A stretch of DNA of 64,000 nt from positions 1,178,001-1,242,000 of the forward strand of contig CP076040.1 of the NCBI GenBank assembly GCA_014529675.2. Reading direction: 5' to 3'. The translations under genes and the position numbers were made by a program. The notes below the pieces were generated by a model. The model worked only from the letters and a program-made list of their open reading frames with translations, had not been told where the DNA came from and ran no database searches. Source of the DNA: Opitutia bacterium ISCC 52. GTDB taxonomy: Bacteria > Verrucomicrobiota > Verrucomicrobiia > Opitutales > UBA2995. How positions within the stretch are numbered: the stretch's first letter is position 1; every line of letters begins with the position of its first letter. Shown piece after piece: positions 9,893 through 40,728 of the stretch.

Positions 9893-10261
9893 ATGATCAA
9901 AAACCTACTATTACCTCTAGTCACCCTGGTTATGATTTCAGGTTGCGCGACACTGTCCGAAAAACCGGATCCTTTCGTGGGAGTATGGGAGATTCAATTT
10001 TCACAGTCTCCAGGAGGCAATCCAAACGCCACTCTGATGATTAAAAAGAAAGAAGGTGTCTACTCGGGTACTCTCTCCAATCCAACCGGCGAATACAAAT
10101 TGAACGAATTGTCAATCGAAGCGAATGGTGTCTTAAGTGCTGGTATTAATTACCGGGGCTATTCTGTTGAATTGAGCGCCACCATGGATGGGAACTCAAT
10201 TGCCGGACAAAACGATGTCCAAGGCAGGACTTTCGAATTCACAGGTGAGAAAGTGGAGTAG
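9893..10261 (+). CDS. Small lipoprotein, unknown function
   Basis: A 122-residue lipoprotein. MIKNLLLPLVTLVMISGC ends in a lipobox with the acylated Cys at 18. The mature part contains FVGVWEIQFSQSPGGN and GNPNATLMIKKKEG, and resembles the small single-domain beta-barrel lipoproteins that carry an F-x-G-x-W start, but I cannot assign a family with certainty. A TTG two codons upstream (9887) is in frame, but the ATG is the natural choice. No Shine-Dalgarno sequence. Stands alone. Confidence 0.75.
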   Translation: MIKNLLLPLVTLVMISGCATLSEKPDPFVGVWEIQFSQSPGGNPNATLMIKKKEGVYSGTLSNPTGEYKLNELSIEANGVLSAGINYRGYSVELSATMDGNSIAGQNDVQGRTFEFTGEKVE

Positions 10262-10381
10262 TATTTCTCTTACCTGAAAAAAAGTTATATAGTATTTTAA
10301 AGAATGAATCCAAAGCGTCATCCCTTTTCAATTGATACCCCTTGAGATGTCCCTACACTCGGTAGACTCTGTTTAAGATTC

Positions 10382-11824: not shown

Positions 11825-12045
11825 GTGATGATGCTTACGGTTAGAGTGGTCATTGCTTTTGACAACACCTTTTTGCTTCTGAACCGTTTTACCAGTCGAT
11901 CTGCATGCTCTGTATCAGGCAGGGTGTCTGCCACACCAGTCGTTAGTCTCCCTGTTCCCGTTTTGAGAAGAACGGATTTCGGTGCCATCGGTCTTGTATA
12001 CAAATTCTAAATACCTGGGGTATCCACGTGGCAAAAGATCAATTT

Positions 12046-12077
12046 AATAAAGGCCATGAGTTCCTCCTGGCTTTATT
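12046..12077 (-). terminator. Candidate terminator after sulfatase at 12085
   Basis: Inverted repeat AATAAAGG-CCA / TGGCTTTATT with one bulged base, starting 8 bases past the sulfatase stop on the minus strand. An AT-rich tail (TTTATTAAATT) follows, consistent with intrinsic termination. The remaining bases to 11825 (about 220) are upstream of the oxidoreductase gene and presumably hold its promoter; nothing else is recognisable there. Confidence 0.5.
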
Positions 12078-12084
12078 CGTTTCA

Positions 12085-13563
12085 TCATCTTTGATTCTGC
12101 CGGTTGTTTCGATCTTGTCTGTCTCCGCGGTTGCCTCCTTGGTCACCGCCTCGGTTCCCCCGTGCTTCGCGATTACGTCCACCACCTCCACCACGTCGGA
12201 TTTGGGGAGGATTGTTTGGGTCGTAGTTAGGATTCACTTCTGGGAGGTCGGCACCGATGGCTTTGAGCCGACTGAAGAGTTCGGATTCCATGGCTGCTGC
12301 CAACTCGGGCTTTAACTTGGATAGGTCTTTGCTTTCTCGAAGGTCTGCAGCGAGATTATAGAGTTGGCTATCTTCCGTTTCGTAGAAATGGAGAAGTTTG
12401 TAGTCCCCTTTAATGAGCGTGGAATGAGGGGTGTCACCCTGGTAGTGAGGAAAGTGAAAGACGAGGCCTTCGCGGGAACGGGTAACCGGTTTATTTTCGC
12501 CTGCGAGTAGATGGGTGATGCTGCCGCCTTCGATGTTCTTAGGCAGCGGCTTATTATAACCGGCCCATTCGGCAAAGGTGTTGTAGAAATCGTAACCGAC
12601 AACCGCCTGGTGCGACCAGGAGTTGGATTCAATACCAGGTCCACGGATAAAGAGAGGCACACGGATGCCGCCTTCGCGCACATCTCCCTTACCACCGCTC
12701 AGTGGGTTGCGACCTCCACCGCCACCCCCAGCGCCGTTGTCAGACATGTAAACGACGTAGGTGTTGTCGGCGATACCAAGCTCGTCGACTTTCGCCATGA
12801 GGAGTCCGATGCCTTCGTCCAGGTTCTCGCCGAGAGCAGCACGTCCAATTGAGCGTGCATTCCCATTTCGCATAAGCTTGCTGTATTTCTCGACCGTATT
12901 GGGTCTGGCGTTTTCCGGGTAGTGGAGCGCGTTGCAGGAGAGTTGGATGAAAAATGGTTTTTCTGCTGCGGTGCTTTTCTCCATGAAAGCCGCCGCTCGC
13001 TTTCCCATGCCAAAGATATCGACCGGGTTGTCACCTTTGTGTGGGGCCGCGTGTTCATTTCCGGTTTCACCGTCGCTTTCATCGTAGCCGTGGACTTCTG
13101 GGCCACCTCCATTGATATGCCATTTCCCATAGTGCGCAGTAGCGTAGCCTGCTTCCTGCAGCAGCTCGCCAATGGTGAATTCATCGTTGGTAATATTGCG
13201 GATATTGGGTGGAGGAATGAGTTTAAAACCGTCCGCAGCCGTATAAGGCCGGCTGGCCTTGGTCCAGTGATTCTGACCGGGGCTTTTACCATTCTGCAGA
13301 CTGAGGCGGGTCGGGGCGCATACGGAGGCTGGGGAGTAGCCTTGACTGAAGCGCATGCCCTGTTCGGCCAGCTTTAGAAGGTTCGGAGTCTGGACCACCT
13401 CGCTTTTGGAGTTAGGGATGTCCGGGTGCATTTGTACGGACGTCTCGTTCCAGCCCTGGTCGTCGGACAGCATGAAAATGATGTTGGGCTTGTCCGAGGC
13501 CAAAAGGCAGAAGGCTAAAGGATGAAGGAAGAGTAAGAGTACTGTTGAGATGATTTTTTTCAT
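12085..13563 (-). CDS. Sulfatase with Gly/Arg/Asn/Gln-rich tail
   Basis: A 492-residue exported sulfatase. Signal peptide (STVLLLFLHPLAFCLLA), first metal block MLSDDQGW (Asp34/Asp35), formylglycine motif CAPTR at Cys82 (C-x-P-T-R, a variant with Thr in the fourth position), and MSDNGAGGGGGGR as the second metal block. The last 40 residues are low complexity, made of Gly, Arg, Asn, Gln and Asp after the PPQIRRGGGGG start; this tail is not part of the sulfatase fold. It may be a disordered, positively charged binding segment. Otherwise the subgroup is arylsulfatase A-like. Confidence 0.92.
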   Translation of the reverse strand: MKKIISTVLLLFLHPLAFCLLASDKPNIIFMLSDDQGWNETSVQMHPDIPNSKSEVVQTPNLLKLAEQGMRFSQGYSPASVCAPTRLSLQNGKSPGQNHWTKASRPYTAADGFKLIPPPNIRNITNDEFTIGELLQEAGYATAHYGKWHINGGGPEVHGYDESDGETGNEHAAPHKGDNPVDIFGMGKRAAAFMEKSTAAEKPFFIQLSCNALHYPENARPNTVEKYSKLMRNGNARSIGRAALGENLDEGIGLLMAKVDELGIADNTYVVYMSDNGAGGGGGGRNPLSGGKGDVREGGIRVPLFIRGPGIESNSWSHQAVVGYDFYNTFAEWAGYNKPLPKNIEGGSITHLLAGENKPVTRSREGLVFHFPHYQGDTPHSTLIKGDYKLLHFYETEDSQLYNLAADLRESKDLSKLKPELAAAMESELFSRLKAIGADLPEVNPNYDPNNPPQIRRGGGGGRNREARGNRGGDQGGNRGDRQDRNNRQNQR

Positions 13564-23106: not shown

Positions 23107-23124
23107 CCTTACCGTGGCCTTACC
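23107..23124. promoter_or_regulatory. Candidate response-regulator operator (tandem direct repeat)
   Basis: CCTTACC occurs twice, start-to-start distance 11 bases (23107-23113 and 23118-23124), in the intergenic region between the divergent efflux operon and response-regulator gene. Tandem repeats with about one helical turn are the usual form of OmpR/PhoB-family sites. Confidence 0.45.
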
Positions 23125-23215
23125 AGAATGGGAAATAATGGAGAAATTGGCCCCCAGGCTGGACTTTTGGGGCAGTCTCGGGCATGGATTTGGCGAAAAG
23201 GGCATCGGAAAATAT

Positions 23216-23884
23216 ATGAAATTACTCCTGGTTGAAGACATGATTTACCTACGCGATTCGATTGCAACCGGTCTCCGTAAAGGTGGCTATGCTGTGGATG
23301 TGGCCAGTGACGGTGAGGAGGGCCTTTGGATGGCGGAATCGGGGGACTACGATGTCTTGATTCTGGATATTATGCTTCCCAAACTGGATGGTCTGGCACT
23401 GCTCGAGCGCTTTCGCGAAAGGGGTGGCGAATCGCTTGCTCTGATGCTGACAGCCAAAGATACGCTCAAGGACAAAGTGGCTGGTCTGAAAACGGGAGCC
23501 GATGATTACTTGGTAAAGCCGTTTGCCATGGAAGAGTTGGAGGCACGGGTAGAGGCGCTTTGTCGGCGAAGGTATGGAGTTTTGAAGACTGTGATAGAGT
23601 CGGAGAATTTATGCGTCGATCTGGCCATGAAAGAAGCGAGGCAAGGGGATCAAGTAATGCCTTTTAAACCGCGCGAGTACCGAATACTTGAATACCTGGC
23701 CATGCGTCGCGGAGAAGTCGTTTCTCGTATGGAAATTGAAGCGAAAATTTATGGCGACACGGATGAGGTTCGGAGTAACACCATCGAGTCGGCTATCTCA
23801 TCCATACGCCGGAAATTATCAGAATCGGGAACGCACTGTCCCATTGAGACACGAGTGGGGCTGGGGTATATCTTTGTTGAATAG
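23216..23884 (+). CDS. OmpR/PhoB-family response regulator
   Basis: A 222-residue regulator when started at the ATG at 23216; a longer frame from 23114 adds 34 unrelated residues. Receiver domain with the acidic pair VED, phospho-acceptor Asp51 (LILDIMLPKLDG), Thr79 in LTAKD and Lys101 in LVKPFAMEEL. The C-terminal winged helix contains FKPREYRILEYLAMRRGEVV and ends with RVGLGYIFVE. It diverges from the HEAT/TolC/MacB operon and is followed by its kinase, so it likely controls the pump. Confidence 0.93.
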   Translation: MKLLLVEDMIYLRDSIATGLRKGGYAVDVASDGEEGLWMAESGDYDVLILDIMLPKLDGLALLERFRERGGESLALMLTAKDTLKDKVAGLKTGADDYLVKPFAMEELEARVEALCRRRYGVLKTVIESENLCVDLAMKEARQGDQVMPFKPREYRILEYLAMRRGEVVSRMEIEAKIYGDTDEVRSNTIESAISSIRRKLSESGTHCPIETRVGLGYIFVE

Positions 23885-24149
23885 CTTATCTTCAAAGTTT
23901 CAAACGCCTTTGAAAGTGCAGGATATAAGTAGTTTAGAAATAGTTAGTTATGAAGAATAGGATTGAATATGTAAATTCCACCAAGAATCTCTGTCTAAGA
24001 TGCACTTTCAAATGTTAAAACCGACATGTGCTAATATCTGCGTTCCAGCCCGCGATTCGCTTGGTCACGTAGGTTCCTACGCTCCCGCAGGGAATTGCGA
24101 ACTGCGCCTTGATCTTCATCACATCTCAGTTTTTTGAATCCTTTGGGTT

Positions 24150-25538
24150 ATGTTATCGATTCGAGCCAGGCTGGTCTTACTGACCATGTTAAGTATCGCT
24201 GCGATTTTTGGAATCAGCGGCACGGCGATCTATTACTATGAGCGCAAGAGTGCTATGGAACGCTTTGATCAACGATTGAGAGTGCAGGCTTATTCGATCA
24301 TGACGGCGACCTACCAGCGGCGTGAGGAGCGTGTGGAGGTCCACTTCACCGATCGGTTTCTGCATGAATTCAATAGTAATCAGAAACGAGCGTTCTACCA
24401 GATCTGGAAAAATGACGATGAGGTTGTGAAGCGGTCCGAGTCTTTGGGGGAACGGGATCTACCGAAACGATTTGGAAAAGAGCGCGAACCAAGATACTGG
24501 GACATGGTTTTGCCCAACGATTTGAACGGGCGTGCGATTGGAGTGCGCTTCGAACCGCGTGTGCGGGGGAATCGTGAGCAGGATTACAATAAGGGATTCC
24601 GGCTAATCCTTGTAGTCGCCACCGATATCCATGAAATCGAGACCTCCATGGCCAATCTCCGGAATCTGTTGTTGTTTGGTGGCATTGCGACCCTTGCCCT
24701 TTCGCCTTTGTTTGTCCTGATGGCACTCAGCCGTGGATTGGGTCCTCTTAAAGGATTGGCAGGTCGTATGGGAAAAGTTGATGCGAGTTCCTTGGGTATC
24801 CATTTTGAGGAAAGTCGTTTGCCGGCAGAATTGAAGCCTATTGCTAAGCAGTTGAATGACCTCTTTTCGCGTTTGAACCAGTCCTTTGAACGGGAACGTC
24901 AATTCAGTGCCGATGTTTCCCATGAATTAAGGACGCCGATTGCTGCGATGCTAAATATAGCCGAGGTTGGAATGAAGTGGGGCGAGGGTGAGTCGAAACA
25001 AGACTATGAAGCCATCCGGCATATTGCTGAAGAAATGCAACAGACGGTTACTCAGCTTATGGATCTCAGTCGCGTGGATAGCGGAGAAGTTGAGCTCAAT
25101 GTGGAATCGGTTTCTTTGGGTGAAATGGTTGAGCAGATTTGGGGTCGGCATCAATCGATGGCCGTAGAGCGAGGGTTACAAGTCGACCTGGGAGATTTTG
25201 AAGGAGTGATCTGGGATGTCGACCGTTCGATGTTTGAGCGGATCGTCGACAATCTGATTGAGAATGCTGTTTCTTATACCACTGAGGGGGGACGTATTGA
25301 AGTGGGTGTCTCCGAGGATCAATCAGCCCTGATTGTGAGTAATAGTTGTGAAGATCTTGTGGACGAGGATATGGAAAAGCTATTCCAACGATTCTGGCGA
25401 AAAGACAGTTCGAGATCCAGTTCGATGCATCGTGGTCTGGGACTTTCCGTGGGATCTGCTTACGCTCAATGCTTAGGAATGGGACTCGAAGCGTCTTTGA
25501 TAGATGGAAATTTCCAGATGCGATTAGCTCCTGGATGA
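24150..25538 (+). CDS. Sensor histidine kinase (HAMP, HisKA, HATPase)
   Basis: A 462-residue membrane kinase: first helix (about residues 8-28), periplasmic domain (about 30-150), second helix (about 172-194), HAMP, H-box ADVSHELRTPIAAM with His258, N-box DNLIENAVSY, and G2 MHRGLGLSVGSAYA. It is the partner of the regulator at 23216, but 265 bases separate them, holding no gene; this gap includes a small palindromic GC-rich stretch (about 24045-24110). The periplasmic domain is not of a family I recognise, so the signal is unknown. Confidence 0.93.
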   Translation: MLSIRARLVLLTMLSIAAIFGISGTAIYYYERKSAMERFDQRLRVQAYSIMTATYQRREERVEVHFTDRFLHEFNSNQKRAFYQIWKNDDEVVKRSESLGERDLPKRFGKEREPRYWDMVLPNDLNGRAIGVRFEPRVRGNREQDYNKGFRLILVVATDIHEIETSMANLRNLLLFGGIATLALSPLFVLMALSRGLGPLKGLAGRMGKVDASSLGIHFEESRLPAELKPIAKQLNDLFSRLNQSFERERQFSADVSHELRTPIAAMLNIAEVGMKWGEGESKQDYEAIRHIAEEMQQTVTQLMDLSRVDSGEVELNVESVSLGEMVEQIWGRHQSMAVERGLQVDLGDFEGVIWDVDRSMFERIVDNLIENAVSYTTEGGRIEVGVSEDQSALIVSNSCEDLVDEDMEKLFQRFWRKDSSRSSSMHRGLGLSVGSAYAQCLGMGLEASLIDGNFQMRLAPG

Positions 25539-25620: not shown

Positions 25621-26085
25621 ATGGATACCCCCGAAATACCTCTGGAGTCGTTGGATGCTGCTCGTGTTGCGGCTCTTCTTGGTGAGCGCTTTTCGTTACA
25701 AGTGCTGGTAGAAGTGGGCGTGGACCTTTCAGGCTTAGATCCACTCTTTGATGATGAGGTTCTGGTCGAAGAAAGTGCGGGCCAGGCTCAGTTTACGGAT
25801 TTTCAAGTAAGGGACGGTTTACTCCAACGATTGCCTTGGTCTTTTCGGCGCAGGTGGAGTTTGAAACTGGCGGAGAGCTTGGAGAAGCTGAAAGGCAAGC
25901 CGGGTAAGTTAGGCGAACTGTTTTTGTCCGCACAGGATTTTGATCGCGCCCGTCCTTATCTCATTCGCGCTGCAGAGATGGCCTGTATGGCCAATGAATA
26001 TTCAAAGGCTCTGGAGTTATTGCGCCAGGTGTTCGCAACGCGGACAGATTTGCGTGTAAGTCATCTTGATGGGGTAGAACGATAG
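25621..26085 (+). CDS. Fragment-like AAA/TPR regulator C-terminal region
   Basis: A 154-residue ORF whose centre (AQFTDFQVRDGLLQRLPW followed by RRRWSLKLAESLEKL) resembles the winged-helix linker after the ATPase domain of MalT-like or LuxR/TPR signalling ATPases, and whose end (ARPYLIRAAEMACMANEYSKA) resembles the first TPR unit. The ATPase part that should precede and the TPR array that should follow are both missing. It may be a relic or a small stand-alone adaptor. Start ATG at 25621 without a clear ribosome site. Confidence 0.5.
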   Translation: MDTPEIPLESLDAARVAALLGERFSLQVLVEVGVDLSGLDPLFDDEVLVEESAGQAQFTDFQVRDGLLQRLPWSFRRRWSLKLAESLEKLKGKPGKLGELFLSAQDFDRARPYLIRAAEMACMANEYSKALELLRQVFATRTDLRVSHLDGVER

Positions 26086-26431
26086 ACTCTGAAAGAGTGA
26101 TAGGAATATGAGTATCTACTATCCCAGAATCTGGCAAGGGTTGAGTCAGAGGCCTCCTGATTAGGGTTTTTGATAAGAGACTGTAAAAATATACTTTGGA
26201 AGGGCCTCTCCAGTCCTTGATCTGGTAGCACCTATTTTCTAATCCCATTTGCGGCCATAGATTTTGGTTTTCCCAAAACTTTATCTGCATGGTCAGTCCG
26301 GCTTGGATATACGTCTGGCCGGGGTTGCAGGTGAGAGAAAACCGGTCAGGCGGTCATTGTACAGGTGGCCGCCTGATCATTTTCTAATCCAGGCTTGAGT
26401 CCCTGCGGTTTGGGAACTCAAGTGAGCGGGT
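26086..26431 (+). promoter_or_regulatory. Leader region with two hairpins before the PheC-AroQ fusion gene
   Basis: No gene seen. A hairpin with 8-bp arms (TCAGGCGG / CCGCCTGA, about 26345-26376) is followed by ATTTTCT and looks terminator-like. A second hairpin at 26394-26422 (CTTGAGTCCC / GGG-A-ACTCAAG) ends 10 bases before the ATG at 26432. The arrangement may be an attenuator or simply a terminator followed by a 5'-UTR hairpin. Confidence 0.4.
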
Positions 26432-27706
26432 ATGGTGTTTCGTTTGTCAGCCTTGAAAGTCGCTCGTCTGCTTTGGATAGTTGTGTCTCTTGTATTTGTA
26501 TCGGCTTGTACCGAGGTCCGGGAAGAAACAGAAATCCTACGGGTGGGCACCAGTGGAGACTACGAGCCCTTCAGCGTGTTGAATACGAGTGGAGAATACG
26601 CAGGATTCGACATCGAGTTGGCCCGACGTTTTGCCATTGAACACGATCTGGAATTGGAATTGGTTCCTTTTAAATGGGCGGAGCTGGCTGCTGATTTAGA
26701 AGCTGGCAAATTCGACTTGGCCATGAGTGGGGTCACCATTCGCAAGGATCGATCCCTGCTTGGTCAATTCAGTGTGCCGACCGCCACGAGTGGTGCGGTG
26801 GTTATCTTGCCTGCTCATTCGGAATTGGAAACCCTGCAGGCGTTGGATAACCAAGCTGTTCGCCTCGGGGTTAATCTTGGCGGTCACCTCGAACGGGTCA
26901 CACGAAAGCAATTCCCTCGAGCGACAATGGTCACGAGTTCTGACAATCAGGCCTTACCCAAGATGTTGGAAGAAGGAGCCATCGATGCGGTTGTGACGGA
27001 TACGATGGAAGCTCCCTATTGGTTATCGCGTTTGAAGGGTGCCAAAGCCTTAGCTCCCTTTACCCAGGATTTGAAAGCGGCCTGGGTGCGGGCTTATCAA
27101 TCCGTCTTAGTTCAACAACTCAATGCATGGCTCGTTGAGCAAGAAACGAACGGAAGCTTAGGGGCCTTGCGAGAATCATTGCTCCCTCCCGGAAATGATG
27201 CAAAAACGGCGGATCCATTTTCAGCTCTCTTAGCGGCGATGGTTGAGCGGCTGTCCTTGATGTCTGACGTTGCGGAAAGCAAACGAGCAACCGGCAAAGC
27301 CATTGAAGACCTGGAGCAAGAGGAACGTGTTCTTCTCGCAGCTGTGGAAGGCGTATCCCAGGAAGCAGAAAGGCGGGGAGTCGTTCATCCAGATGTGACA
27401 ACAGTAGAACAGTTTTTCCATGCTCAGATTGAGGCTGCCAAGGCGATCCAAAGACAGGTGATGAGGCAAGCGGCCAGCACAGACGAGCCTCTTGATTTAG
27501 TGAACGATATACGACCTGCACTTGTAAGGATTAGTGCACGGATCAATCAGTTGATCTGTTTGCTACCAAGTGCAGTTACCAAGGATGAACAGGAAGTTCT
27601 GGAGCAAATCAACCAGGCTCTGCTTGTGTATGGTTTGCCTGATAAGGAAGAGAAGCAACTTACCACTGCGTTGTTAGCTATAGCTGGATTCTCGAGTTCT
27701 TACTAA
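26432..27706 (+). CDS. Exported cyclohexadienyl dehydratase-chorismate mutase fusion
   Basis: A 424-residue putative lipoprotein (VFVSAC, Cys26). Residues about 34-250 form a solute-binding-protein-type domain: SGDYEPFSVLNTSGEYAGFD, FDLAMSGVTI, and RLGVNLGGHLERV plus AIDAVVTDTMEA, which follow the pattern of PheC cyclohexadienyl dehydratase rather than an amino-acid binding protein. Residues about 265-420 match the secreted AroQ-gamma chorismate mutase: RLSLMSDVAESKRATGKA, IEDLEQEE, and FFHAQIEAAKAIQRQ with the conserved Lys284 and Gln332. The two enzymes catalyse consecutive steps, chorismate to prephenate to phenylpyruvate. Neighbours (RND operon) do not explain it. An alternative is that the first domain only binds an aromatic ligand. 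Confidence 0.78.
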   Translation: MVFRLSALKVARLLWIVVSLVFVSACTEVREETEILRVGTSGDYEPFSVLNTSGEYAGFDIELARRFAIEHDLELELVPFKWAELAADLEAGKFDLAMSGVTIRKDRSLLGQFSVPTATSGAVVILPAHSELETLQALDNQAVRLGVNLGGHLERVTRKQFPRATMVTSSDNQALPKMLEEGAIDAVVTDTMEAPYWLSRLKGAKALAPFTQDLKAAWVRAYQSVLVQQLNAWLVEQETNGSLGALRESLLPPGNDAKTADPFSALLAAMVERLSLMSDVAESKRATGKAIEDLEQEERVLLAAVEGVSQEAERRGVVHPDVTTVEQFFHAQIEAAKAIQRQVMRQAASTDEPLDLVNDIRPALVRISARINQLICLLPSAVTKDEQEVLEQINQALLVYGLPDKEEKQLTTALLAIAGFSSSY

Positions 27707-27785
27707 TTTTTGAGCAATTTCATAGCGGTTCCATCTGAGGGATTGACTCTTAAGTTTTACAGGGTCATCCAATACGATTCCGCAA

Positions 27786-28886
27786 ATGACTAATTCCCTA
27801 AGACTCGTCTCGTGTTTTGTACTCCTTGGATTCCCCGTTATCTTGGTATCGGCGGCCAATGTACAGACTGTTAAACCTGAACTCCGCGACTTGGTTCGTG
27901 AAACAACGCAGCCTGCCACAGCACAGGCCTTCTATTCAGCCGATCTGGGTGTGAAGGTGACTGGTTATGTAGATTCTGTTCCGGTAGATATTGGAGATGA
28001 GGTCAAGAAAGGCCAGGCATTGGCCGTGATTGCAGCTCCTGAGATATCGGAGCAACGCAACGCCCTTAAGGCGGAGGAGCGGGAACTTGCGACGAGTGTC
28101 CAGGCAGCTGAGGCTAGTCTAACGGCCGTGGAATCAGAAACATCCCGTATTCAGGATCTGGTCAAGAAAGGCTCTGTGACCAATAAAGCTGGCGATGAGG
28201 CACGCAACCGCCTGATTGCTGCTGAAGCTGAGGTAGCTGCCGCCAAGGCCCGTCTTGGAACGGCGACCGCTCGTTTGGCAGAAGTGGATGCCCTGATTGC
28301 TTATGCCACGATTACAGCACCCTTTGATGGGATTGTTACTTATCGGGCGGTTGATCCAGGTGATTTAGTCCAGGCTGCTGGAGGATCCAAGGGCGGTGAA
28401 ACCCTTCTTCGTGTGGCCCAGGTAAACAAGCTTCGAGTCGTGACTCACGTTCCTGAGGCTCATGCAGTCTGGCTCGATATCGGTGATGCGGTTGAATTGG
28501 AATTTGATGCCTTTCCTGGCAAAGTCTTCAGTGGAAGAATTGCTCGCAAATCAGGTGCCCTGAATAAAAGCACACAACGTATGCAGGCGGAGATCGATTT
28601 GGATAACAGCAACGGTCAACTGCTTCCCGGACTCTACGGTCGCGCGAAGATCAGTTTGGAAAAGAAGTCGGGAGCCCTCGTGCTTCCGGCAGGAGCCGTT
28701 CGCTTCGGCCAAGGTCCTTCTCACGTATATGTGGTGAATGGTTCAACCGTGAAACACCAACAAGTGACCATTGGCTTGGATCACGGTGAGTGGGTGGAAG
28801 TTACTTCCGGCTTGTCCGGAAATGAGCAAGTTGTGAACGGAATGATTGGCCGCCTAGCCGACGGTGCAACGGTGACCGTTAAATAA
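27786..28886 (+). CDS. RND efflux periplasmic adaptor (MFP)
   Basis: A 366-residue membrane fusion protein with signal peptide (FVLLGFPVILVSA). Lipoyl-like motif DIGDEVKKGQALAVI, a coiled-coil hairpin (about residues 90-165, rich in Ala/Glu), ITAPFDGIVTYRAVDPGD and the final barrel with LVLPAGAVRFGQG. It links the RND pump at 29107 to the TolC-family protein at 32260. It lacks the lipobox Cys of AcrA, so it is probably soluble or held by contacts only. Confidence 0.92.
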   Translation: MTNSLRLVSCFVLLGFPVILVSAANVQTVKPELRDLVRETTQPATAQAFYSADLGVKVTGYVDSVPVDIGDEVKKGQALAVIAAPEISEQRNALKAEERELATSVQAAEASLTAVESETSRIQDLVKKGSVTNKAGDEARNRLIAAEAEVAAAKARLGTATARLAEVDALIAYATITAPFDGIVTYRAVDPGDLVQAAGGSKGGETLLRVAQVNKLRVVTHVPEAHAVWLDIGDAVELEFDAFPGKVFSGRIARKSGALNKSTQRMQAEIDLDNSNGQLLPGLYGRAKISLEKKSGALVLPAGAVRFGQGPSHVYVVNGSTVKHQQVTIGLDHGEWVEVTSGLSGNEQVVNGMIGRLADGATVTVK

Positions 28887-28972
28887 CCGCGATCCTCACC
28901 GGATAGCTGAACAAAAGAATTAATTCATTTAGAAAAGATCGTGGTTTTTCTTCCAAGGAATTCAAATAGCTC

Positions 28973-29044
28973 GGCACAGCGGGGACGCTGTCGCCCTGCC
29001 ATATTTAATTGGAAATGTAGGGCAAGAGCCTCCGGCTCTGCCGC
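28973..29044. repeat. REP-like palindromic element, family A
   Basis: Hairpin CAGCG-GGGA-CGCTG (28977-28990), central stem GCCCT/AGGGC (28993-28997 with 29019-29023) and hairpin AGAGCC-TCC-GGCTCT (29025-29039). Together they make a cloverleaf-like fold in the 220-base gap between adaptor and pump genes. Related to 13596-13645. Confidence 0.6.
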
Positions 29045-29106
29045 TCATAATGGTTCGCTATTGGCGATGCCTTCAAACGAAGAGGAATATAAAGCAGCAT
29101 AGTATT

Positions 29107-32100
29107 ATGAGTTTGGTCAAATTTGCCCTTAAGAATCCTTTCGCGGTTTTATCCGTCGTCTTAGGATTATCCTTTCTTGGTGTTGCAGTTTATCCGCAGA
29201 TTACTGCAGACATCCTTCCTGACTTTAAGAAGCCGGTTATCATGAGTTACTTTTCCTACCGGGGTCTTCCGACCATGGAGATGGAGAAGTCGGTGACCTC
29301 TCGTGTGGAGCGCGCCCTTACCCTCGCTGGCAAACGCGAGCGCATCGAGTCTCGCACCATGCCGGGTGCTGCGTTGATGAAAGTTACTTTCCAGGCGGGT
29401 GCCGATCCTTCCGCGGCGATGAACGATATCTTCAACTATGAGTTGAGTGATATGTTTCACTTGCCCCCTGGCATTGAATTTCCGTTCACCCTGAGAAGTG
29501 AGCCATCCAACATGCCGGTGATGCTGGGAGCCATTTCGGGAGAGGGTCTGAGTGAATCACAGCTTTACACCATTGGTTACTACGCGGTTCGTAACAAGAT
29601 GGGTGGCCTGAAGGGCGTTCAAATCCCTCACCCATTTGGTGGCAAGTTCCGCCAGATCATGACCTACCTCGAGCCAGGGAAGCTGGAGGCTCACAATCTA
29701 ACTTTCACCGATGTAGTCAATGCCTTGGCTCAGCAGAATCTTGTCTTGGCAGGCGGTAATCTGAAAGTCGGCGATTTCGACTACCAGGTACACCCGGTCA
29801 ATACCCTGCAGACGACCCAGGACATCGACAATGTGGTCGTAGCCGTTCGTGAAGGGCAGCCGATTTTTATTAAAGACCTGGGACAAACCAAGGATGACTC
29901 CGAGCTTCAGTACAACATCGTACGAGTAAACGGAAGTCGGTCGGTATACGTGCCGCTTCTTCGGGAGCCTGGAGAAAATACCATACAGGTGGTTGACCGT
30001 GTTCGTAAGGGAATTGCACGAGAAATTCCTGCGATGAAAGCCCGGGGTGAAATTCCTGAAGTGACCCAGGTAGATTTAGTCAGTGACCAGTCGACCTACA
30101 TCCGCAAGGCGATTAACAATTTGAAAACCCAGGTGATCCTCGGGGGTATCCTGGTGGTTCTCATAGTAGTATTTTTCCTGCGGAAGCTGCGGGCGTCCCT
30201 GGCCATCCTGCTCATGCTTCCACTTTCCATGCTGATTGGTCTTCTCGGATTTTATTTTACCGGTGAAACCATCAATGTGATGACCCTGGGTGGGCTGGCG
30301 CTTGCCATGGGAACAGTGGTGGATGCCGGGATTGTCGTGGTCGAAAACATCATGCGTCACCGAGCTATGGGTAAAGACGCCGAAACCGCGGCCGGAGAAG
30401 GAGCCCAGGAAGTAGCAGCCCCCGTGTTGGCTGGAACGATTACCACTTTGGCGGTATTCGTCCCTGCAATCTTCCTCTCCGGAATGATTAAATTTCTCTT
30501 CCTGCCGTTGTCGCTCGCTGCCGTGATGACCATTACGGCCTCTTACTTTATCGCCATGACCGTCGCTCCGGCGTTCTGTGCCCGTTTCCTCGGAAAAGTG
30601 ACCGGGAAGGCGGCCGCGTCCAGTGTGGATATCGAACACAAATCCGGCGGCTTTTATGCGGTAACGCTTCATAAAGCGATGCGTGGTGGGTTCTTAACTG
30701 TGGCTGCTATTGTTGGAGCTACGGCTGGTTGTTTTCTCCTGGTTCCCGCTTTGGGATCAGAACTGTTTCCCGATGTGGATGCCGGCACGTTTGAAGTGCG
30801 CATCAAGACCATCCCGGGAACGCGTCTGGAAAAGACGGAGGAGATCGTAGCACGTATCGAAGACTCCATTAACGAGACGATCACTGAGGAGTCCGTTCAA
30901 TCGATCATTTCCAATATCGGTATGCCGGTAGGGAAGGGTGCCGGATTTTCAACCATCCTCAGTTCCAACTCAGGACCGGACACGGCATACATCATCGTTA
31001 ATATGAAGGATGATCGTGCCAAGAGCACCCTAGGCTTCGTAAAAGAGCTGCGTGCCAAATGGGCTGAAGAATTTCCCAATGAAAAATTTCTCTTCGTAAC
31101 CGGTGGTATCGTGAATGCTGCTTTGAACGAAGGCGCACCGAGCCCCATCGATATCGAAATTAAAACCGGTTCATTGGATGCGGGCCGAGCGGCTGCCGAA
31201 ACGATTGAGGCAGCCATCCAAGGCGTCCCTGGAGCGGTGGATATTCAGATCGCCCAGATGCTAGACTATCCGCAGCTGGACATCGAAGTGGATCGCACGA
31301 AAGCGGCTTTATACGGGCTGACTCAGGAGGAGGTCGCCAAGAACGTGCTTACGGCTTATGGCTCGAGTGCCAGTTTTCAGTCCATGATCTGGGTCGATCC
31401 CAAGTCAGGTACCGATTTCTTTATCGGCGTTCAGCTTGGAGATAACGAAGCTGACTCCTTAGATGAGTTAAGAAACCTGCCTTTGCGCATTCAAACAGAC
31501 GAAGGCCCATCCACTATACCTCTTTCGAGTATCGCCAAGCTCAAGCGCGTCAACATTCCTGGTGAAATTGCCCATGCCGACATTTCTCGTGTGAACAACG
31601 TGTATGTGAATGTTGAAGATCGTGATTTGGGTTCTGTTGTAGCTGATATTGAAAAGCGCTTGGAAGATGTGGAACTTCCACCGGGTGTGACCGTATCCAT
31701 GCAAGGTCCGGTTATGACCATGCGTGAAGGTATTTCTAAAATCGGGTTCGGACTCGTTGTTGCCTGCGTATTGGTATTCCTGGTACTCATGGCTCAGTTT
31801 AAGTCTTTTGTGGATCCTCTCATTATTATGCTGGCCGTTCCCTTGGCTATGGCCGGCGTTGTGGTTATCCTCTTTCTTACCGGCACCAACTTGAACATCC
31901 AGAGTCTCATGGGAGCGCTCATGTTGATCGGGGTGGTGGTAAACAACAGTATCTTGTTGGTTGAATTTGCGAACCTGCAGTTGAAACAAGGCAAGACGCC
32001 TTTCGAGGCTGCCTACGCTGCCGCTCGCATTCGGGTAAGGCCCATTGTTATGACGTCGCTCACTTTGATCGCATCGCTAGCACCCTTCGCGTTCGCCTTG

Positions 32101-32253
32101 CTTCCAGGGAATGAGGCGATGATTCCTTTAGCCCGCGCGGTTATCGGAGGTATGCTGGTTTCAGCGGTCTTAACTCTGCTGCTTATCCCGAGTGTATTTG
32201 CTTTGGTTAAAAAGAGCTCTGCTTCGAACCTTCAATCGCAACCTGCAGTTTAA
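29107..32253 (+). CDS. RND-family efflux pump inner-membrane subunit
   Basis: A 1048-residue transporter from the ATG at 29107 (a GTG/ATG 19 codons upstream lacks support and runs through a repeat). Twelve-helix RND layout: first helix FAVLSVVLGLSFLGVAVYP, two periplasmic loops, the duplicated second half starting near FLTVAAIVGATAGCFLLVP. TM4 reads GTVVDAGIVVVENI and TM10 VVVNNSILLVEF. Compared with AcrB this keeps Asp407 but has Ala at the Asp408 position and Asn at Lys940, a known type in distant RND groups. Cargo unknown; the adaptor and outer-membrane partners flank it. Confidence 0.94.
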   Translation: MSLVKFALKNPFAVLSVVLGLSFLGVAVYPQITADILPDFKKPVIMSYFSYRGLPTMEMEKSVTSRVERALTLAGKRERIESRTMPGAALMKVTFQAGADPSAAMNDIFNYELSDMFHLPPGIEFPFTLRSEPSNMPVMLGAISGEGLSESQLYTIGYYAVRNKMGGLKGVQIPHPFGGKFRQIMTYLEPGKLEAHNLTFTDVVNALAQQNLVLAGGNLKVGDFDYQVHPVNTLQTTQDIDNVVVAVREGQPIFIKDLGQTKDDSELQYNIVRVNGSRSVYVPLLREPGENTIQVVDRVRKGIAREIPAMKARGEIPEVTQVDLVSDQSTYIRKAINNLKTQVILGGILVVLIVVFFLRKLRASLAILLMLPLSMLIGLLGFYFTGETINVMTLGGLALAMGTVVDAGIVVVENIMRHRAMGKDAETAAGEGAQEVAAPVLAGTITTLAVFVPAIFLSGMIKFLFLPLSLAAVMTITASYFIAMTVAPAFCARFLGKVTGKAAASSVDIEHKSGGFYAVTLHKAMRGGFLTVAAIVGATAGCFLLVPALGSELFPDVDAGTFEVRIKTIPGTRLEKTEEIVARIEDSINETITEESVQSIISNIGMPVGKGAGFSTILSSNSGPDTAYIIVNMKDDRAKSTLGFVKELRAKWAEEFPNEKFLFVTGGIVNAALNEGAPSPIDIEIKTGSLDAGRAAAETIEAAIQGVPGAVDIQIAQMLDYPQLDIEVDRTKAALYGLTQEEVAKNVLTAYGSSASFQSMIWVDPKSGTDFFIGVQLGDNEADSLDELRNLPLRIQTDEGPSTIPLSSIAKLKRVNIPGEIAHADISRVNNVYVNVEDRDLGSVVADIEKRLEDVELPPGVTVSMQGPVMTMREGISKIGFGLVVACVLVFLVLMAQFKSFVDPLIIMLAVPLAMAGVVVILFLTGTNLNIQSLMGALMLIGVVVNNSILLVEFANLQLKQGKTPFEAAYAAARIRVRPIVMTSLTLIASLAPFAFALLPGNEAMIPLARAVIGGMLVSAVLTLLLIPSVFALVKKSSASNLQSQPAV

Positions 32254-32259
32254 TTTGTC

Positions 32260-33612
32260 ATGAAACTGAAATCACTCATTGCCTTTCTTATTTCTTCAAG
32301 CCTGGTTGCCACATCTACCTTGGTGCATGCCGAGGTGATGCAAATCGACCTCACCAGTGCCTTGCGTCTGGCCAACGACCAGAACACGGAGCTCGCGATT
32401 CAACTTGAGCGCGTCAAGCGCGCCGAGATCGGCAAAGATATAGCCTGGCACCAATGGCTGCCAACGGTAAGAGCTGGGTTCGGTACTTCTGATCAAAACG
32501 GTCCCTTACAAAATACCAATGGATCCACCATCGATGCGGATCGGAAAGCTTCGTCCAAGGGATTTGGTCTTCCGACCGTAGGATCTGGATTGGCTCCTAA
32601 ACCTGGATTGGCTCTCGAGCTGGATTTGGCCGAGGGCATCTTTCAGCCCTTGGCTGCGACGCAGAAATTAAAGGCAGCCCAGGCGGAAGAGATAGAAGCA
32701 CGACAGAATCTGGCGTTGGAAGTTGCAGGAGCTTACTACGAACTTGTGCAATCGCAGCGCCAAATGGCGATCGCTGCCGAAGCCTCGGATAATGCAAGTA
32801 ATCTGGCCAAAGTTACCGCCGATTTTGCGGAAGCCGGTGAAGGCCTTCAGGCCGATGCCGAGCGTGCCGCCGTAGAGTCATTGATCCAACAGAATAACCT
32901 GGAGTCGGCTCGTATGCGGTCAACCGGGGCTTCCAGTCGTTTGGTTCAGCTTTTGCGCCTGAATGAATCCGTGGAACTGGCAGCTGTCGATTCCATGATC
33001 GTTCCCTTGAATCTGTTTCCTATGGAACCTCAGTTGGACTCGCTAATAAATAAAGCACTTGCGAATCGTCCGGAACTCAAACGTTACGAAGCCTTGGTAA
33101 AAGCTGAACAAGCGACGCTGAAACAAGAGTCTTGGGGACTACTCATTCCGAAGCTCGGTGCAACCTATTCGGATACCCAGTATAAAGGTCGAATCAGTGG
33201 AACGTCTTCCAGCTACGATGATCGTGATGAAACGAGCGTAGCTCTTTATTGGGAGCTCGAGAATCTTGGCTTCACCAGTTGGGCCAAAAAGGAAAGCCAG
33301 CAATCACGTCTGCGTGAAGCACAGGCTCGTGAGCTGCAGGCCGAATCGGATATCATTGCTGATGTGAATCTCGCGCTCGCTCAATATCGCGCCGCTGGAA
33401 AGCAGGTCGAGTTTCTCAAGCAAGCCGTTGATCGTGCCCGAAAAGCCTTTGATCTCAGCACGGAACGTATTTATGAGAACCAAGGCCTTCCCCTTGAAGC
33501 CCTTCAAGCCATGAAGGCTTTAGAGCAAGTGGAGTCTATGTATCTCATCGCATCCGCTCAACGGAACCTGTCGCAGCTTTACCTGCTAGCCGCCACAGGC
33601 GACGAGATTTAG
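32260..33612 (+). CDS. TolC-family outer-membrane efflux protein
   Basis: A 450-residue outer-membrane factor with signal peptide (KSLIAFLISSSLVATSTLVHA). It begins with the usual LTSALRLANDQNTELAIQLE and contains the duplicated helical repeats with LEVAGAYYELVQSQRQMAIA. It starts six bases after the pump gene, so adaptor, pump and channel form one operon. It is not lipidated, unlike the other TolC-family protein at 20462. Confidence 0.92.
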   Translation: MKLKSLIAFLISSSLVATSTLVHAEVMQIDLTSALRLANDQNTELAIQLERVKRAEIGKDIAWHQWLPTVRAGFGTSDQNGPLQNTNGSTIDADRKASSKGFGLPTVGSGLAPKPGLALELDLAEGIFQPLAATQKLKAAQAEEIEARQNLALEVAGAYYELVQSQRQMAIAAEASDNASNLAKVTADFAEAGEGLQADAERAAVESLIQQNNLESARMRSTGASSRLVQLLRLNESVELAAVDSMIVPLNLFPMEPQLDSLINKALANRPELKRYEALVKAEQATLKQESWGLLIPKLGATYSDTQYKGRISGTSSSYDDRDETSVALYWELENLGFTSWAKKESQQSRLREAQARELQAESDIIADVNLALAQYRAAGKQVEFLKQAVDRARKAFDLSTERIYENQGLPLEALQAMKALEQVESMYLIASAQRNLSQLYLLAATGDEI

Positions 33613-35980: not shown

Positions 35981-37342
35981 ATGAAACTTCGTATTTCCTT
36001 GGTCGTCCTGTCGCTATGGGGCTTGTTCGTTTCCTCACTGTCTGGAGCCGACGAACGACCCAATGTCCTATTTATTGCGATCGATGATCTGAATTCCTGG
36101 GTGACTCACCTCGGTGGGCATCCTCAGGCCATCACACCAAACATTGATCGTTTGGCCGAACGGGGAATCACTTTCGAAAATGCCTTCTGTGCGGTGCCTG
36201 CTTGTGAACCCTCTAGAGCGGCCTTGATGAGTGGGCAGCGACCGTGGTCGACGGGTGCCTATTTGAATGGGGATGAATGGATGGAAATTTTTAAGCCTGG
36301 CCAAGGATTGTCCGCTCGTTTCAAGGAGGCTGGATACCATACCGTCGGGGCTGGAAAAATTTATCACAGTGGCGAACGGTTCGAGTCTGAATGGACGGAG
36401 TATATGGATTCTTCCAAACTGGGAAATCATGGCGGCGTTCCCAAGAACCAAGGGTATCATGAACCCTTGGTCATGGATATTAAAGATGAGGATATCGCCG
36501 ATTGGCACTCGGTTAATTGGTGTATAGAGCAGATGAATACAAAGTCCGATAAGCCCAAGTTTATCGCCGCCGGTTTGAACAAACCTCACTTGCCGTTTGC
36601 TCCGCCAAAAAAGTATTACGATGCCTTTCCTTTAGAGGAGATTCAATTGCCACCGTACAAGGTAGACGATCTGGACGATTTGTCGGACGCCGCAAGGAGG
36701 ATGGCGATTCATAACACCGACTTTGCCAGATTCCAGGAAAGCGGTCGATGGAAGGCTGCGATTCGGTCCTACCTGGCTACCTGTGCCTATACGGATATGA
36801 ATGTGGGGCGTCTGCTCGATGGATTGGAGAATAGCTCCATCGCCGATAACACGATCATCGTCCTCTGGGGTGATCATGGGTGGTCATTCGGCGAGAAAAA
36901 TCACTTTCGAAAGTTTGCCCTTTGGGAGGAGCCGACTCAAACGCCCTATGTTTGGGTGGTGCCCGGCATGACACAGGCAGGGACTCGCTCGTCCACACCT
37001 GTTGATTTGATGAGTGTTTATCCGACGCTGTGTGAGTTGGCCGGACTTAAGCAACCGGAAAACATAGATGGAATCAGTATCGTTCCCTTGCTGAACGACC
37101 ACAACCAATATTGGGGTACGCCGGCTATCACTACGCATGGACGTGGCAATCATACTGTTCGCAGCGAACGCTGGCGCTACATTCAATATGTCGATGGGAC
37201 GGAGGAACTTTATGATCACACCGTTGATCCAAATGAATGGACAAACCTCGCTTCAAATGCCAACTACGATGCTATTATAAAACGCCTTAGTGCCTGGCTC
37301 CCGGCAGAAGAAGTCCCTGCGTGGCCCGAGCGAGAAGACTAG
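35981..37342 (+). CDS. Sulfatase, iduronate-2-sulfatase-like
   Basis: A 453-residue exported sulfatase with signal peptide (ISLVVLSLWGLFVSSLSG). Metal ligands in NVLFIAIDDLNSWV (Asp35/Asp36), formylglycine motif CEPSR at Cys75, and LWGDHGWSFGEK. It resembles the gene at 6018 (both have IDDLN and GGHPQA). A compact C-terminus ends at WPERED. First of three consecutive plus-strand sulfatases, so a shared operon is likely; the next gene begins 19 bases later. Confidence 0.94.
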   Translation: MKLRISLVVLSLWGLFVSSLSGADERPNVLFIAIDDLNSWVTHLGGHPQAITPNIDRLAERGITFENAFCAVPACEPSRAALMSGQRPWSTGAYLNGDEWMEIFKPGQGLSARFKEAGYHTVGAGKIYHSGERFESEWTEYMDSSKLGNHGGVPKNQGYHEPLVMDIKDEDIADWHSVNWCIEQMNTKSDKPKFIAAGLNKPHLPFAPPKKYYDAFPLEEIQLPPYKVDDLDDLSDAARRMAIHNTDFARFQESGRWKAAIRSYLATCAYTDMNVGRLLDGLENSSIADNTIIVLWGDHGWSFGEKNHFRKFALWEEPTQTPYVWVVPGMTQAGTRSSTPVDLMSVYPTLCELAGLKQPENIDGISIVPLLNDHNQYWGTPAITTHGRGNHTVRSERWRYIQYVDGTEELYDHTVDPNEWTNLASNANYDAIIKRLSAWLPAEEVPAWPERED

Positions 37343-37360
37343 ATCTCAATTTACTGCCCA

Positions 37361-39016
37361 ATGAAGAACTGCATTACAAAAACTACGTGCGCTGTGGGAG
37401 CGGGTTTATTCCGCGATCACACGGTGCAGCCTCAGAGCAATCGCGGGGTTAACCCGCTCCCACAGTTTTCTGCTGTTCTTTTCTGTCTGCTTGCATTCGC
37501 CTCGCAGTCAATCGCCGCTGATGAACGCCCCAACATCCTGCTCATGATGGTGGATGACTTGGGTTATGCTGACTTCGGTTGTTACGGTAGCGAAATTCAG
37601 ACGCCAAACATCGATCGACTAGCCAGCAATGGGCTTCGGCTGACTCAGTTTTACAACACCGCCAAGTGTCACTCATCACGACTCGCCCTCCTGTCGGGGC
37701 AATACAGTCGCTATGCTGGTGAGAGTGATTTTCGCAACGCGGTAACGATTGCGCAGGTGTTAGGCAAAGCAGGCTACAGTACTTCGATGACCGGGAAGTG
37801 GCATTTGGACAAGCAGCCGACAGACTATGGTTTCGAGCAATACTGGGGACACCTTTCTGGCGCGACCGACTTCTTTGCTGGAGATGACACCTTTCGCAAG
37901 AACGGCGAGGTGTGGGATGACTTCGACAAGGATGAAGACTTTTATGTCACCGATGCGAACGTGGATTACGCCATCGAGTTTTTGGATAATGTGATAGAAG
38001 ACGACAAACCGTTCTTTCACTACATTGCTTTTAATGCTCCTCACTATCCGCTACACGCTCCCAAGGAAACCATTGAGAAATACATGGGCCGCTACGATGC
38101 GGGTTGGGAAGTACTACGTGAAGAGCGACTGGTGAAACAGAAGCTGCTCGGGCTATTTCCTTCTGACTTGGAACTAGCCCCTATGCCCGAACATGTTCCG
38201 GCTTGGGATTCACTTACCAAAAAGCAGAAAAAGTTTGAGTCCTTTCGTATGGCGATTTTTGCCGCGATGGTCGATGAAGTGGATCAGAGCATTGGTCGCA
38301 TGATCGATTACCTGAAAGAGAAGGGTGAGTACGAAAACACTTTGATCATGCTTGTCTCCGATAATGGTGCCTGCCCATTTGAACGGAGCTCCAGTATCGA
38401 CATTCCACCCTGGGAGGCGGGGTCTTACTACCTCTACGACGCGAGCTGGGCGACGGTTGGGAATACCCCATTCAAGCATTACAAGCAAACTCAACACGAG
38501 GGCGGAATCTCCAGCCCTTTTATTGCCCACTGGCCTGGGAAGATTAAGAACCCAGGCAGTCTGGACGGCGAGCTTAGTCATTTGATAGATATCATGGCGA
38601 CATGTATTGAATTGGCGGATACAAAATATCCGAAGAAAAAAGGACTGAATCCACTCCAAGGGAAATCACTGCTTCCTGTCTTTGAAGGCAATAATCGTAA
38701 AGGACACGACGAGCTTTGGTTTTCATTTGGAAACTGCCGTGCGATGCGAGAAGGCGACTGGAAGCTCGTCAGCTTTTATCAGCACCAGTGGGAACTCTAT
38801 AACATTGCGGAGGATCGCCTGGAGCAAAACGATCTGGCAGCAAAAATGCCGAAACGAGTCGAAGCGATGAAAGCCCGTTGGTACGAATACGCTAAAGGAA
38901 CCGACATGAAAGGCGACAAGCAGATCGGTCCGGTGAAGAACAAACCATCACCTAATAATCAGGGGAGCTGGCATGCTCCTGAAAAAGTGGCTGATTGGAA
39001 GATGCCCAAACTATGA
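37361..39016 (+). CDS. Sulfatase with REP palindrome translated in leader
   Basis: A 551-residue arylsulfatase-like protein. Metal block LLMMVDDLGYADFG (Asp65/Asp66), modification motif CHSSR at Cys103; the residue after x is Ser, not the usual Pro/Ala, although a Cys-x-Ser-x-Arg form is also seen in formylglycine sulfatases. The ORF starts MKNCITKTT, then about 26 residues are encoded by a REP-like palindrome (37392-37465), and only then the hydrophobic signal core FSAVLFCLLAFASQSIAA follows. The insertion kept the frame, so the protein may still be exported. LVSDNGACPF is the second metal block. Confidence 0.9.
   Translation: MKNCITKTTCAVGAGLFRDHTVQPQSNRGVNPLPQFSAVLFCLLAFASQSIAADERPNILLMMVDDLGYADFGCYGSEIQTPNIDRLASNGLRLTQFYNTAKCHSSRLALLSGQYSRYAGESDFRNAVTIAQVLGKAGYSTSMTGKWHLDKQPTDYGFEQYWGHLSGATDFFAGDDTFRKNGEVWDDFDKDEDFYVTDANVDYAIEFLDNVIEDDKPFFHYIAFNAPHYPLHAPKETIEKYMGRYDAGWEVLREERLVKQKLLGLFPSDLELAPMPEHVPAWDSLTKKQKKFESFRMAIFAAMVDEVDQSIGRMIDYLKEKGEYENTLIMLVSDNGACPFERSSSIDIPPWEAGSYYLYDASWATVGNTPFKHYKQTQHEGGISSPFIAHWPGKIKNPGSLDGELSHLIDIMATCIELADTKYPKKKGLNPLQGKSLLPVFEGNNRKGHDELWFSFGNCRAMREGDWKLVSFYQHQWELYNIAEDRLEQNDLAAKMPKRVEAMKARWYEYAKGTDMKGDKQIGPVKNKPSPNNQGSWHAPEKVADWKMPKL
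37392..37465. repeat. REP-like palindrome, family B, inside sulfatase leader
   Basis: Arms 37392-37416 and 37441-37465 match in 22 of 25 positions as inverted repeats, with words CTGTGGGAGCGGGTT and CCGCGA. The pattern (GTGGGAGC...TTTATTC-CGCGA) recurs in a weaker form at 44761-44832 and resembles REP sequences of Pseudomonas and of Opitutae. Confidence 0.75.
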
Positions 39017-39100
39017 TCTTCACGATTGGCCCGTGACCTTAAACGCTTCGAGATACATCAGCGGTGTAGATCTTCTCAAACTAATCGATTCAATCCTCTA

Positions 39101-39295
39101 ATGGCTGAACCTCAACAGGACAATCATTTTGCGCAAGAAATACAGTCGTATGAGCGCCAATTGAAAGCCTACTTGATCAAAAGGTTTCCCACCTTGGAAG
39201 ACGTTGATGACATCGTTCAGGAGGCTTATGCACGGCTTTTGAAGGCTCACGATAAGAAGCCTTTTTTCCAGTTATCAGCACTCCCTTTAATATGA
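39101..39295 (+). pseudogene. ECF sigma factor fragment (region 2 start)
   Basis: 64 codons beginning with MAEPQQDNHF. The stretch ERQLKAYLIKRFPTLEDVDD and IVQEAYARLLKAHDKK is the N-terminal part of sigma-70 region 2 of an RpoE/FecI-type factor. The frame then leaves the family (PFFQLSALPLI) and stops at 39293-39295, overlapping the next ATG by ATGA. Region 4 and most of region 2 are absent, so it is a broken remnant. ECF factors often sit beside sulfatases in this phylum. Confidence 0.7.
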
Positions 39296-40728
39296 AGAAT
39301 TTTTGTATTCCCTTCCTGATCTTGGGATTGGTTGTTGGTTGTGCGGATCCGAAGTCAGATAGTTCATCCGAGAAAGCTGGGGAAATGAATATCCTCTTCA
39401 TTATTGCCGATGACTTACGGCCTGACATGGGGGCCTATGGCGATGCAATCGCAGTGACTCCCCACCTCGATAGCCTGGCCAGTCAATCGGTAGTCTTCAA
39501 CCGGGCTTATTGTCAGAAGGCTGTGTGCTGGCCTTCTCGAAATAGTTTCTTCTCTGGACTTATGCCGGCCTCGTTGGGGAAGAAGACGAATGCGAAAAAC
39601 ACCTTTCGGGCGGAACATCCGGACATTGTAGCTTTGCCACAGCTCTTTAAGAACCACGGCTGGTATACTCAAGGCTTTGGAAAGATTCTACACAATGGGC
39701 AGGACGACCCGGGTTCCTGGTCAGAACCTTGGTTTGAGCCTGAGTCCCTTCATTATGCAGCTCCTGAAAATGTGGACAAACATCCCATTATCAATCGTTC
39801 AGTATCTGAGAATCGGGTGAACCCGTTGTTTGAGGCGGCGGATGTGGGAGATGAAGCCTACGAAGATGGGCTGACCGCCCAAGCTGCCCGTGAGGCGATA
39901 CGTGCCGCTTCCGCTCGAGAAGATCCTTTCTTTATGATGGTAGGCTTTCACAAGCCGCATACACCATTCAATGCGCCGAAGAAATATTGGGACCTATATG
40001 AGCGGGAATCGATTCCGCTCGCTGAGTACCCAAATCCGCCTCAGAATGCGGATCCTCTTTATGCGGTTCATGAGTCCAGGTATGTTCGTAGCTTTAAAGA
40101 TATTCCCCAGTCAGGGCAAATGCCTGATGATCTGGCCCGAGAAATTAAACATGCCTATTATGCCTGTATCAGTTATGTGGATGCGTTGGTAGGTGGGATC
40201 CTGGAAGAGCTGGAAGCAAGTGGGCAGCTGGACAATACGATTATCATATTTACTTCGGATCATGGTTATCAGCTGGGAGATCACTCCTTGTGGTCGAAGC
40301 ACACCAATTTCGAATTGGCCACTCGAGTACCTTTGTTGGTTTCAGTCCCCCGTGCTTCGTCACAAGGCAAATCGATGAACAGTCTGGTAGAGCTGCTCGA
40401 CTTGTTCCCGACACTAGCTGAGCTGTGTGGCCTATCGCAACCGGACCATCTCGAAGGTAGAAGTTTTGCTGCCTCTTTGTTGGATGCTCCATCTATAAAA
40501 CGGAAAAGTGCCTACAGTGAGTATTCCAGGAATGGAGCTATCGGACGTTCCATTCGTACCGACCGATTTCGCTATATTGAATGGCAAAGTCTGAAAACGA
40601 AACAGGTGGTTTCTCGTGAACTCTATGACCATGAAAATGATCCGGGAGAGAATGTAAGTGTGGCTGGGGAAGCGGCTCATGCTGCTTTGATTGAGGAATT
40701 GTCTCAATTGCTGGCAACCAGAATGTAG
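39292..40728 (+). CDS. Sulfatase, lipoprotein type
   Basis: A 478-residue sulfatase. The leader MKNFCIPFLILGLVVGC has a lipobox (Cys17), so unlike its neighbours it is probably membrane-anchored. Metal ligands in ILFIIADDLRPDMGAYG (Asp40/Asp41), modification motif CWPSR at Cys79, and TSDHGYQLGDH. The first part with DDLRPDMGAYGD and HPDIVALPQ is of the iduronate-2-sulfatase-like group. The start overlaps the preceding sigma fragment by ATGA. Two hairpins follow the stop. Confidence 0.94.
   Translation: MKNFCIPFLILGLVVGCADPKSDSSSEKAGEMNILFIIADDLRPDMGAYGDAIAVTPHLDSLASQSVVFNRAYCQKAVCWPSRNSFFSGLMPASLGKKTNAKNTFRAEHPDIVALPQLFKNHGWYTQGFGKILHNGQDDPGSWSEPWFEPESLHYAAPENVDKHPIINRSVSENRVNPLFEAADVGDEAYEDGLTAQAAREAIRAASAREDPFFMMVGFHKPHTPFNAPKKYWDLYERESIPLAEYPNPPQNADPLYAVHESRYVRSFKDIPQSGQMPDDLAREIKHAYYACISYVDALVGGILEELEASGQLDNTIIIFTSDHGYQLGDHSLWSKHTNFELATRVPLLVSVPRASSQGKSMNSLVELLDLFPTLAELCGLSQPDHLEGRSFAASLLDAPSIKRKSAYSEYSRNGAIGRSIRTDRFRYIEWQSLKTKQVVSRELYDHENDPGENVSVAGEAAHAALIEELSQLLATRM

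Follow-up and report, generated by a model that had tools for sequence, protein, structure and literature searches.

Exported proteins that combine a chorismate mutase (CM) and a cyclohexadienyl dehydratase (CDT, the PheC enzyme) in one chain have been described from nine beta- and gamma-proteobacterial species and in two domain orders, of which CDT-then-CM is described only for beta-Proteobacteria (Stocker et al. 2023, PMC10520331). The published fusions are active in both reactions, apart from one of the seven tested that was insoluble, they show no channelling, and every one of them conserves all nine active-site residues of the Pseudomonas aeruginosa enzyme (PaCDT), where E173 is needed as general acid (PMC10520331). 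As their role the authors propose signalling, and two independent origins were taken as a sign that the fusion must be useful (PMC10520331). Here we analyze a fusion gene from Opitutia bacterium ISCC 52 (Verrucomicrobiota), located in a stretch of 64,000 nucleotides that we refer to as the window. The fusion architecture as such was already published in 2023, and what is new is a Verrucomicrobiota fusion with an altered and conserved CDT pocket.

The original prediction described the gene as encoding a lipoprotein that joins a PheC-like domain to a secreted AroQ-type mutase, and the open reading frame, the signal peptide and both domains were confirmed, the first domain being PheC-descended and the second of AroQ-gamma type (Table 1). 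The lipoprotein-type signal peptide reads MVFRLSALKVARLLWIVVSLVFVSAC, and the protein is probably exported and lipid-anchored, as judged from this segment. The lipobox cysteine is found as C27 in the L002 orthologue, and the L013 orthologue has no cysteine there. Both domains are joined in a single chain with a signal peptide, as in the fusions of Stocker et al. (2023). The Pfam family suggested earlier, SBP_bac_3, matches residues 36-248 with 92.4 bits, and CM_2 matches residues 265-340 with 28.5 bits against a gathering threshold of 27. TIGR01806, the NCBIfam model of gamma-class AroQ that had been suggested for a search, does match residues 263-371 (E 5.6e-16), but the 58.7 bits fall below its equivalog cut-off of 74.15, which is also missed by both orthologues and by two of the four opposite-order fusions mentioned below. 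With the score under the cut-off we class the mutase domain as AroQ-gamma-like only.

When the PDB was searched with phmmer, the best matches over both domains were the bifunctional proteins 8cq6 and 8cq4, followed by the CDT 5jos with 120.9 bits, while amino-acid binding proteins reached at most 72 bits with the exception of the reconstructed ancestor AncCDT-1 (111 bits). PheC-like proteins outscore amino-acid binding proteins, the comparison on which the PheC assignment had been staked, and a plain amino-acid binding protein was rejected on these scores together with the pocket residues and the position in the tree. The AlphaFold2 model of the protein (33 aligned proteins, mean pLDDT 93.3) consists of a binding-protein fold with two lobes and, after it, a domain made up of helices only. 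The top five Foldseek hits are 8cq4, 8cq6 and 8pnh, i.e. solved CDT-CM fusions, and the CDT domain of the model superimposes on PaCDT at 1.5-1.8 A.

Table 1 Features of the fusion gene and its surroundings in the window.
Feature	Positions	Strand	Basis and remarks
Two-component system, OmpR/PmrA-like regulator and heavy-metal-type histidine kinase	23114..25538	+	neighbour of the fusion gene
Conserved structured leader with 15-bp terminator-like stem (26344-26378)	26251..26398	+	just 5' of the fusion gene
Exported CDT-CM fusion lipoprotein	26432..27706	+	424 aa; Pfam, NCBIfam, phmmer/PDB, AlphaFold2, Foldseek
Signal peptide and lipobox V-S-A-C26, +2 Thr	26432..26509	+	sequence; predicted helix 2-26
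PheC-descended SBP_bac_3 domain	26531..27181	+	residues 34-250; pocket Y44 W82 A122 N148 H152 L153 N172 T189 E193
AroQ-gamma-like chorismate mutase domain	27215..27691	+	residues 262-420; site R273 K284 I291 D293 Q296 V300 A336 K337 Q340 R361
RND efflux operon: adaptor, permease, outer-membrane factor	27786..33612	+	neighbour of the fusion in G000 and G007 only

For the mutase site we used the ten positions of MtCM that PMC10520331 names. When the AroQ active-site residues MtCM R49, K60, D69, R72, E/Q109 and R134 are looked up, R273, K284, D293, Q340 and R361 are present, and the R72 position is taken by Gln296, which deviates from the holotype and matches the characterised Yersinia member. 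The essential mutase residues are accordingly in place and an objection from their loss does not apply; the arginine (R273) and Lys284 singled out in the original prediction were correct, whereas the catalytic glutamine is Q340 and not Gln332. A glutamine at the R72 position is unusual, as the arginine is kept by the stand-alone relatives in the order, and a literature search on EcCM R51 mutants gave nothing helpful. The secreted CM of Yersinia pestis (2GBB) has the same residues as the fusion at all ten mapped positions, including the Gln at R72, and was reportedly found to be active by Kim and colleagues in 2008. Because of this identical set of ten residues the mutase of the window fusion is probably active, and we rejected the idea that the change of R72 to Gln kills it. 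*YpCM (2GBB) is among the characterised CMs (PMC7762937), but it is a stand-alone protein and overall distant from the CM of the window (phmmer 24 bits).

The nine active-site residues of PaCDT are Y22, W60, K100, N128, T132, N133, N152, T169 and E173, and at the corresponding positions the fusion reads YWANHLNTE, so that six of the nine PheC residues are found. The general acid E173 is kept as E193, and all three orthologues carry Ala, His and Leu in place of K100, T132 and N133. Compared with P. aeruginosa PheC (3KBR, 5HPQ, 6BQE), the fusion shares the fold, the general acid and these six site residues, and it differs in the three replacements, in the absence of the disulfide cysteines and in the attached CM. 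Of the earlier proposal that the protein turns chorismate into phenylpyruvate, the half carried by the CM site is supported and the dehydratase half is not (K100A, T132H, N133L), and a true PheC-type dehydratase activity appears doubtful. That the second, CDT-derived site is altered or sensory is, to our judgement, somewhat the better bet.

Among the three alleles 46% of the CDT columns are invariant as compared to all nine of the pocket positions (hypergeometric p 0.0008, from three sequences), and the longest invariant runs, SGAVVI, GGHLERVTR, VTDTMEAP, VAESKR and AQIEAAKAIQ, are the pocket segments of both domains. Since the pocket is invariant among alleles that are only 50-58% identical it must be regarded as maintained, and judged from these three alleles (50-59% identical, one genus) the altered CDT pocket is selected and kept, not decaying.

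The three changes could nevertheless be tolerated or compensated (e.g. H152 for K100) in an ordinary bifunctional enzyme that converts chorismate to phenylpyruvate in the envelope. Such an enzyme would agree with the retention of E193, N148, N172, T189, Y44 and W82, with the Leu at T132 that one PheC-like group from elsewhere in the phylum carries, and with the comparable change in the CM (R72 to Gln), which is tolerated in the Yersinia enzyme. However, K100 and N133 are both kept in all 15 other PheC-like loci examined, fusions included, as well as in all fusions of PMC10520331, whereas the three orthologues here lack the two together, and we consider the ordinary enzyme rather unlikely. Elsewhere in the phylum, L128 (454-2331, minus strand) and L131 (439-2313, minus strand) encode a PheC-like domain, with T132 changed to Leu, fused to an AAT domain (acyl-CoA:6-APA acyltransferase, PF03417), so that a PheC-like domain has another partner there.

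The fusions most like that of the window are those of Janthinobacterium sp. HH01 and Duganella sacchari (8CQ4, 8PNH, 8CQ6; PMC10520331), with the same two domains, order and export. They also share V, K and Q at MtCM positions 76, 106 and 109 of the C-terminal AroQ-gamma domain, which are typical of the published fusions. Unlike the window fusion with its three replacements they keep all nine PaCDT residues, and they have Ser at T105 and the arginine at R72 where the window fusion has Ala and Gln. The window fusion further differs in being probably lipid-anchored and in having no WLxxxW linker, since the region reads WLVEQE and the second Trp is missing. A whole-chain Foldseek comparison with the published fusions gave 23 A rmsd at a TM of about 0.5, which means that the domains in the model are placed differently relative to each other from those in the solved fusions.

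In a tree of 38 CDT and SBP sequences the query clade and all PheC-like proteins lie on one side of a 100/99 branch and the SBPs on the other, and the stem of the query clade is long (1.3-1.7 changes per site). AncCDT-1 and the SBPs have the fold in common with the CDT domain of the window, but AncCDT-1 is without E173 and N128, both of which the window fusion keeps. A single group of the query CDT and the CDTs of the beta-proteobacterial CDT-CM proteins, including those of HH01 and D. sacchari, was rejected (AU p 0.007). For the CM domain a shared origin with the beta-proteobacterial fusions gave an AU p of 0.465, and the CM tree does not decide. The simplest reading is that the window fusion is probably a separate fusion event in Verrucomicrobiota (Opitutales). 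When ancestral sequences are left out of the tree the query clade takes a basal position with respect to the remaining CDTs (90/88), and the three changed CDT residues might therefore be an early state instead of a loss.

Within the family the fusion was found in three of eight genomes, namely the genome of the window (G000), G007 (58-59% identity) and G005 (50-52%), and the three orthologues all come from one genus. The closest named relative is a MAG labelled Opitutales (Verrucomicrobiota) that is 58% identical and has the same gene order. Among 373 genomes of the order, four fusions of the opposite order were found in family f13 (L016, L017, L018 and L020); they have the same domains and are exported, with the CM first as in the Aequoribacter fuscus fusion (8CQ3, PMC10520331), and unlike the window fusion these CM-first proteins have an intact CDT site. 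The f13 fusions extend the known distribution outside Proteobacteria. No further fusion of the query type was present among the matches listed from the class (286 genomes) and the phylum (388 genomes), the sets for order, class and phylum being samples and not censuses, and no plasmid or phage record covered 80% of the query. Scanning IMG/VR and searching the literature for fusions of this kind in Verrucomicrobiota gave nothing helpful either.

The fusion genes of G000 and G007 are 58% identical with saturated synonymous sites, whereas identity in the genes on either side is 90-97% and dS 0.5-1.0. Identity falls at about position 26400, just before the start codon, and is back at 27731, just past the stop codon. 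When 26400-27730 of the window is aligned with 7960-9413 of L002, the divergence is gene-exact and both flanks are 83-95% identical. Because synonymous sites are saturated between these sister species in the fusion gene and not in the flanking genes, it looks like a gene-sized allele has been exchanged at a fixed locus. The leader of about 150 nt is 95% identical to that of G007 (L002 about 7816-7960), compared with about 85% for flanking coding DNA. It is single copy, folds with a z of -5.4 (26240-26434), contains a stem found by a terminator scan and has no Rfam match; it is possible that it is an attenuator, or simply a terminator.

The original prediction guessed that the RND operon exports a product of the fusion. 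G004 and G005 also conserve the RND adaptor and permease, there with no fusion alongside, and in G005 the fusion gene adjoins a DNA polymerase IV-like gene, so that the guess finds no support, and coupling to the pump as a rule was rejected. The two-component system is also kept, next to a HEAT-repeat gene and with no fusion in the stretches read, in G005 and G006, and in G005 it lies beside an exporter cluster as well. Since pump and two-component system occur without an adjacent fusion, the neighbourhood does not define the function of the fusion. In G005 a short SBP-like ORF (L147 1533-1910, minus strand) is located just 3' of the orthologous histidine kinase, which is the place of the fusion in G000 and G007. 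The window also holds a 154-aa ORF at 25621-26085, without Pfam match and with a weak resemblance to part of a TOMM kinase/cyclase protein; the L002 counterpart is cut short, so it is probably a gene remnant. At least six sulfatase-family genes are found in the window (6018-13563 and 35981-40728).

The two-component system upstream of the fusion gene does fit with a CDT-derived domain that is a non-catalytic sensor of prephenate, phenylpyruvate or another aromatic acid, for which the CM makes the ligand from chorismate and which the neighbours in G000 and G007 might read. The domain belongs to a family with the fold of binding proteins, three lost substrate-site residues next to a strictly conserved remainder would suit a sensor, and signalling has also been proposed for the known fusions (PMC10520331). 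A pure binder does not need the invariant general acid Glu, though, and the two-component system and the pump each occur in relatives with no fusion adjacent to them, so the sensor likewise seems rather unlikely. A decaying pseudo-enzyme with no selected function, to which the 58% identity between sister species, the fast divergence and the replaced active-site residues might point, was rejected as very improbable, since the frame is open in three species, conservation in three alleles is highest in the pocket segments of both domains, the predicted fold is of high confidence, and the saturation of synonymous sites as well means that relaxed selection alone does not account for the divergence, which reflects age or exchange.

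To the explanation we put forward we give an even chance: an envelope lipoprotein that probably arose by a fusion of its own and in which both pockets are functional, the dehydratase-derived one with a chemistry or specificity that would be unlike PheC. The C-terminal AroQ-gamma-like domain would convert chorismate to prephenate outside the cytoplasm, as the ten matching residues suggest. The N-terminal domain, of prephenate dehydratase descent with E193 kept and with a reshaped, conserved pocket (A122, H152, L153), would most likely act on or hold a prephenate-like ligand. While the domains, the residues, their conservation and the place in the tree are shown, we infer both activities, the ligand and the role of the protein. 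CM_2 and PDT domains are also encoded elsewhere in the genome, in a frame of 375 aa apart from the fusion (G000:C1:2604939-2605718), so phenylalanine synthesis need not depend on the fusion and its housekeeping form is an unlikely role; the use is probably in detecting or clearing chorismate or prephenate released from cells.

With its changed yet conserved dehydratase site the window fusion is a variant from nature in which the two activities may be separated. It is a probable third origin in another phylum and the first with an altered, conserved dehydratase site. Somewhat short of an even chance, we think, is the full reading in which this third independent fusion of an exported CM and a PheC descendant has had its second site re-purposed, either to a new elimination chemistry or to a prephenate-type sensor; if it is true, the product of the mutase goes into a reaction that is not carried out by PheC-like enzymes. 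The variant makes the question of a signal versus an overflow pathway testable.
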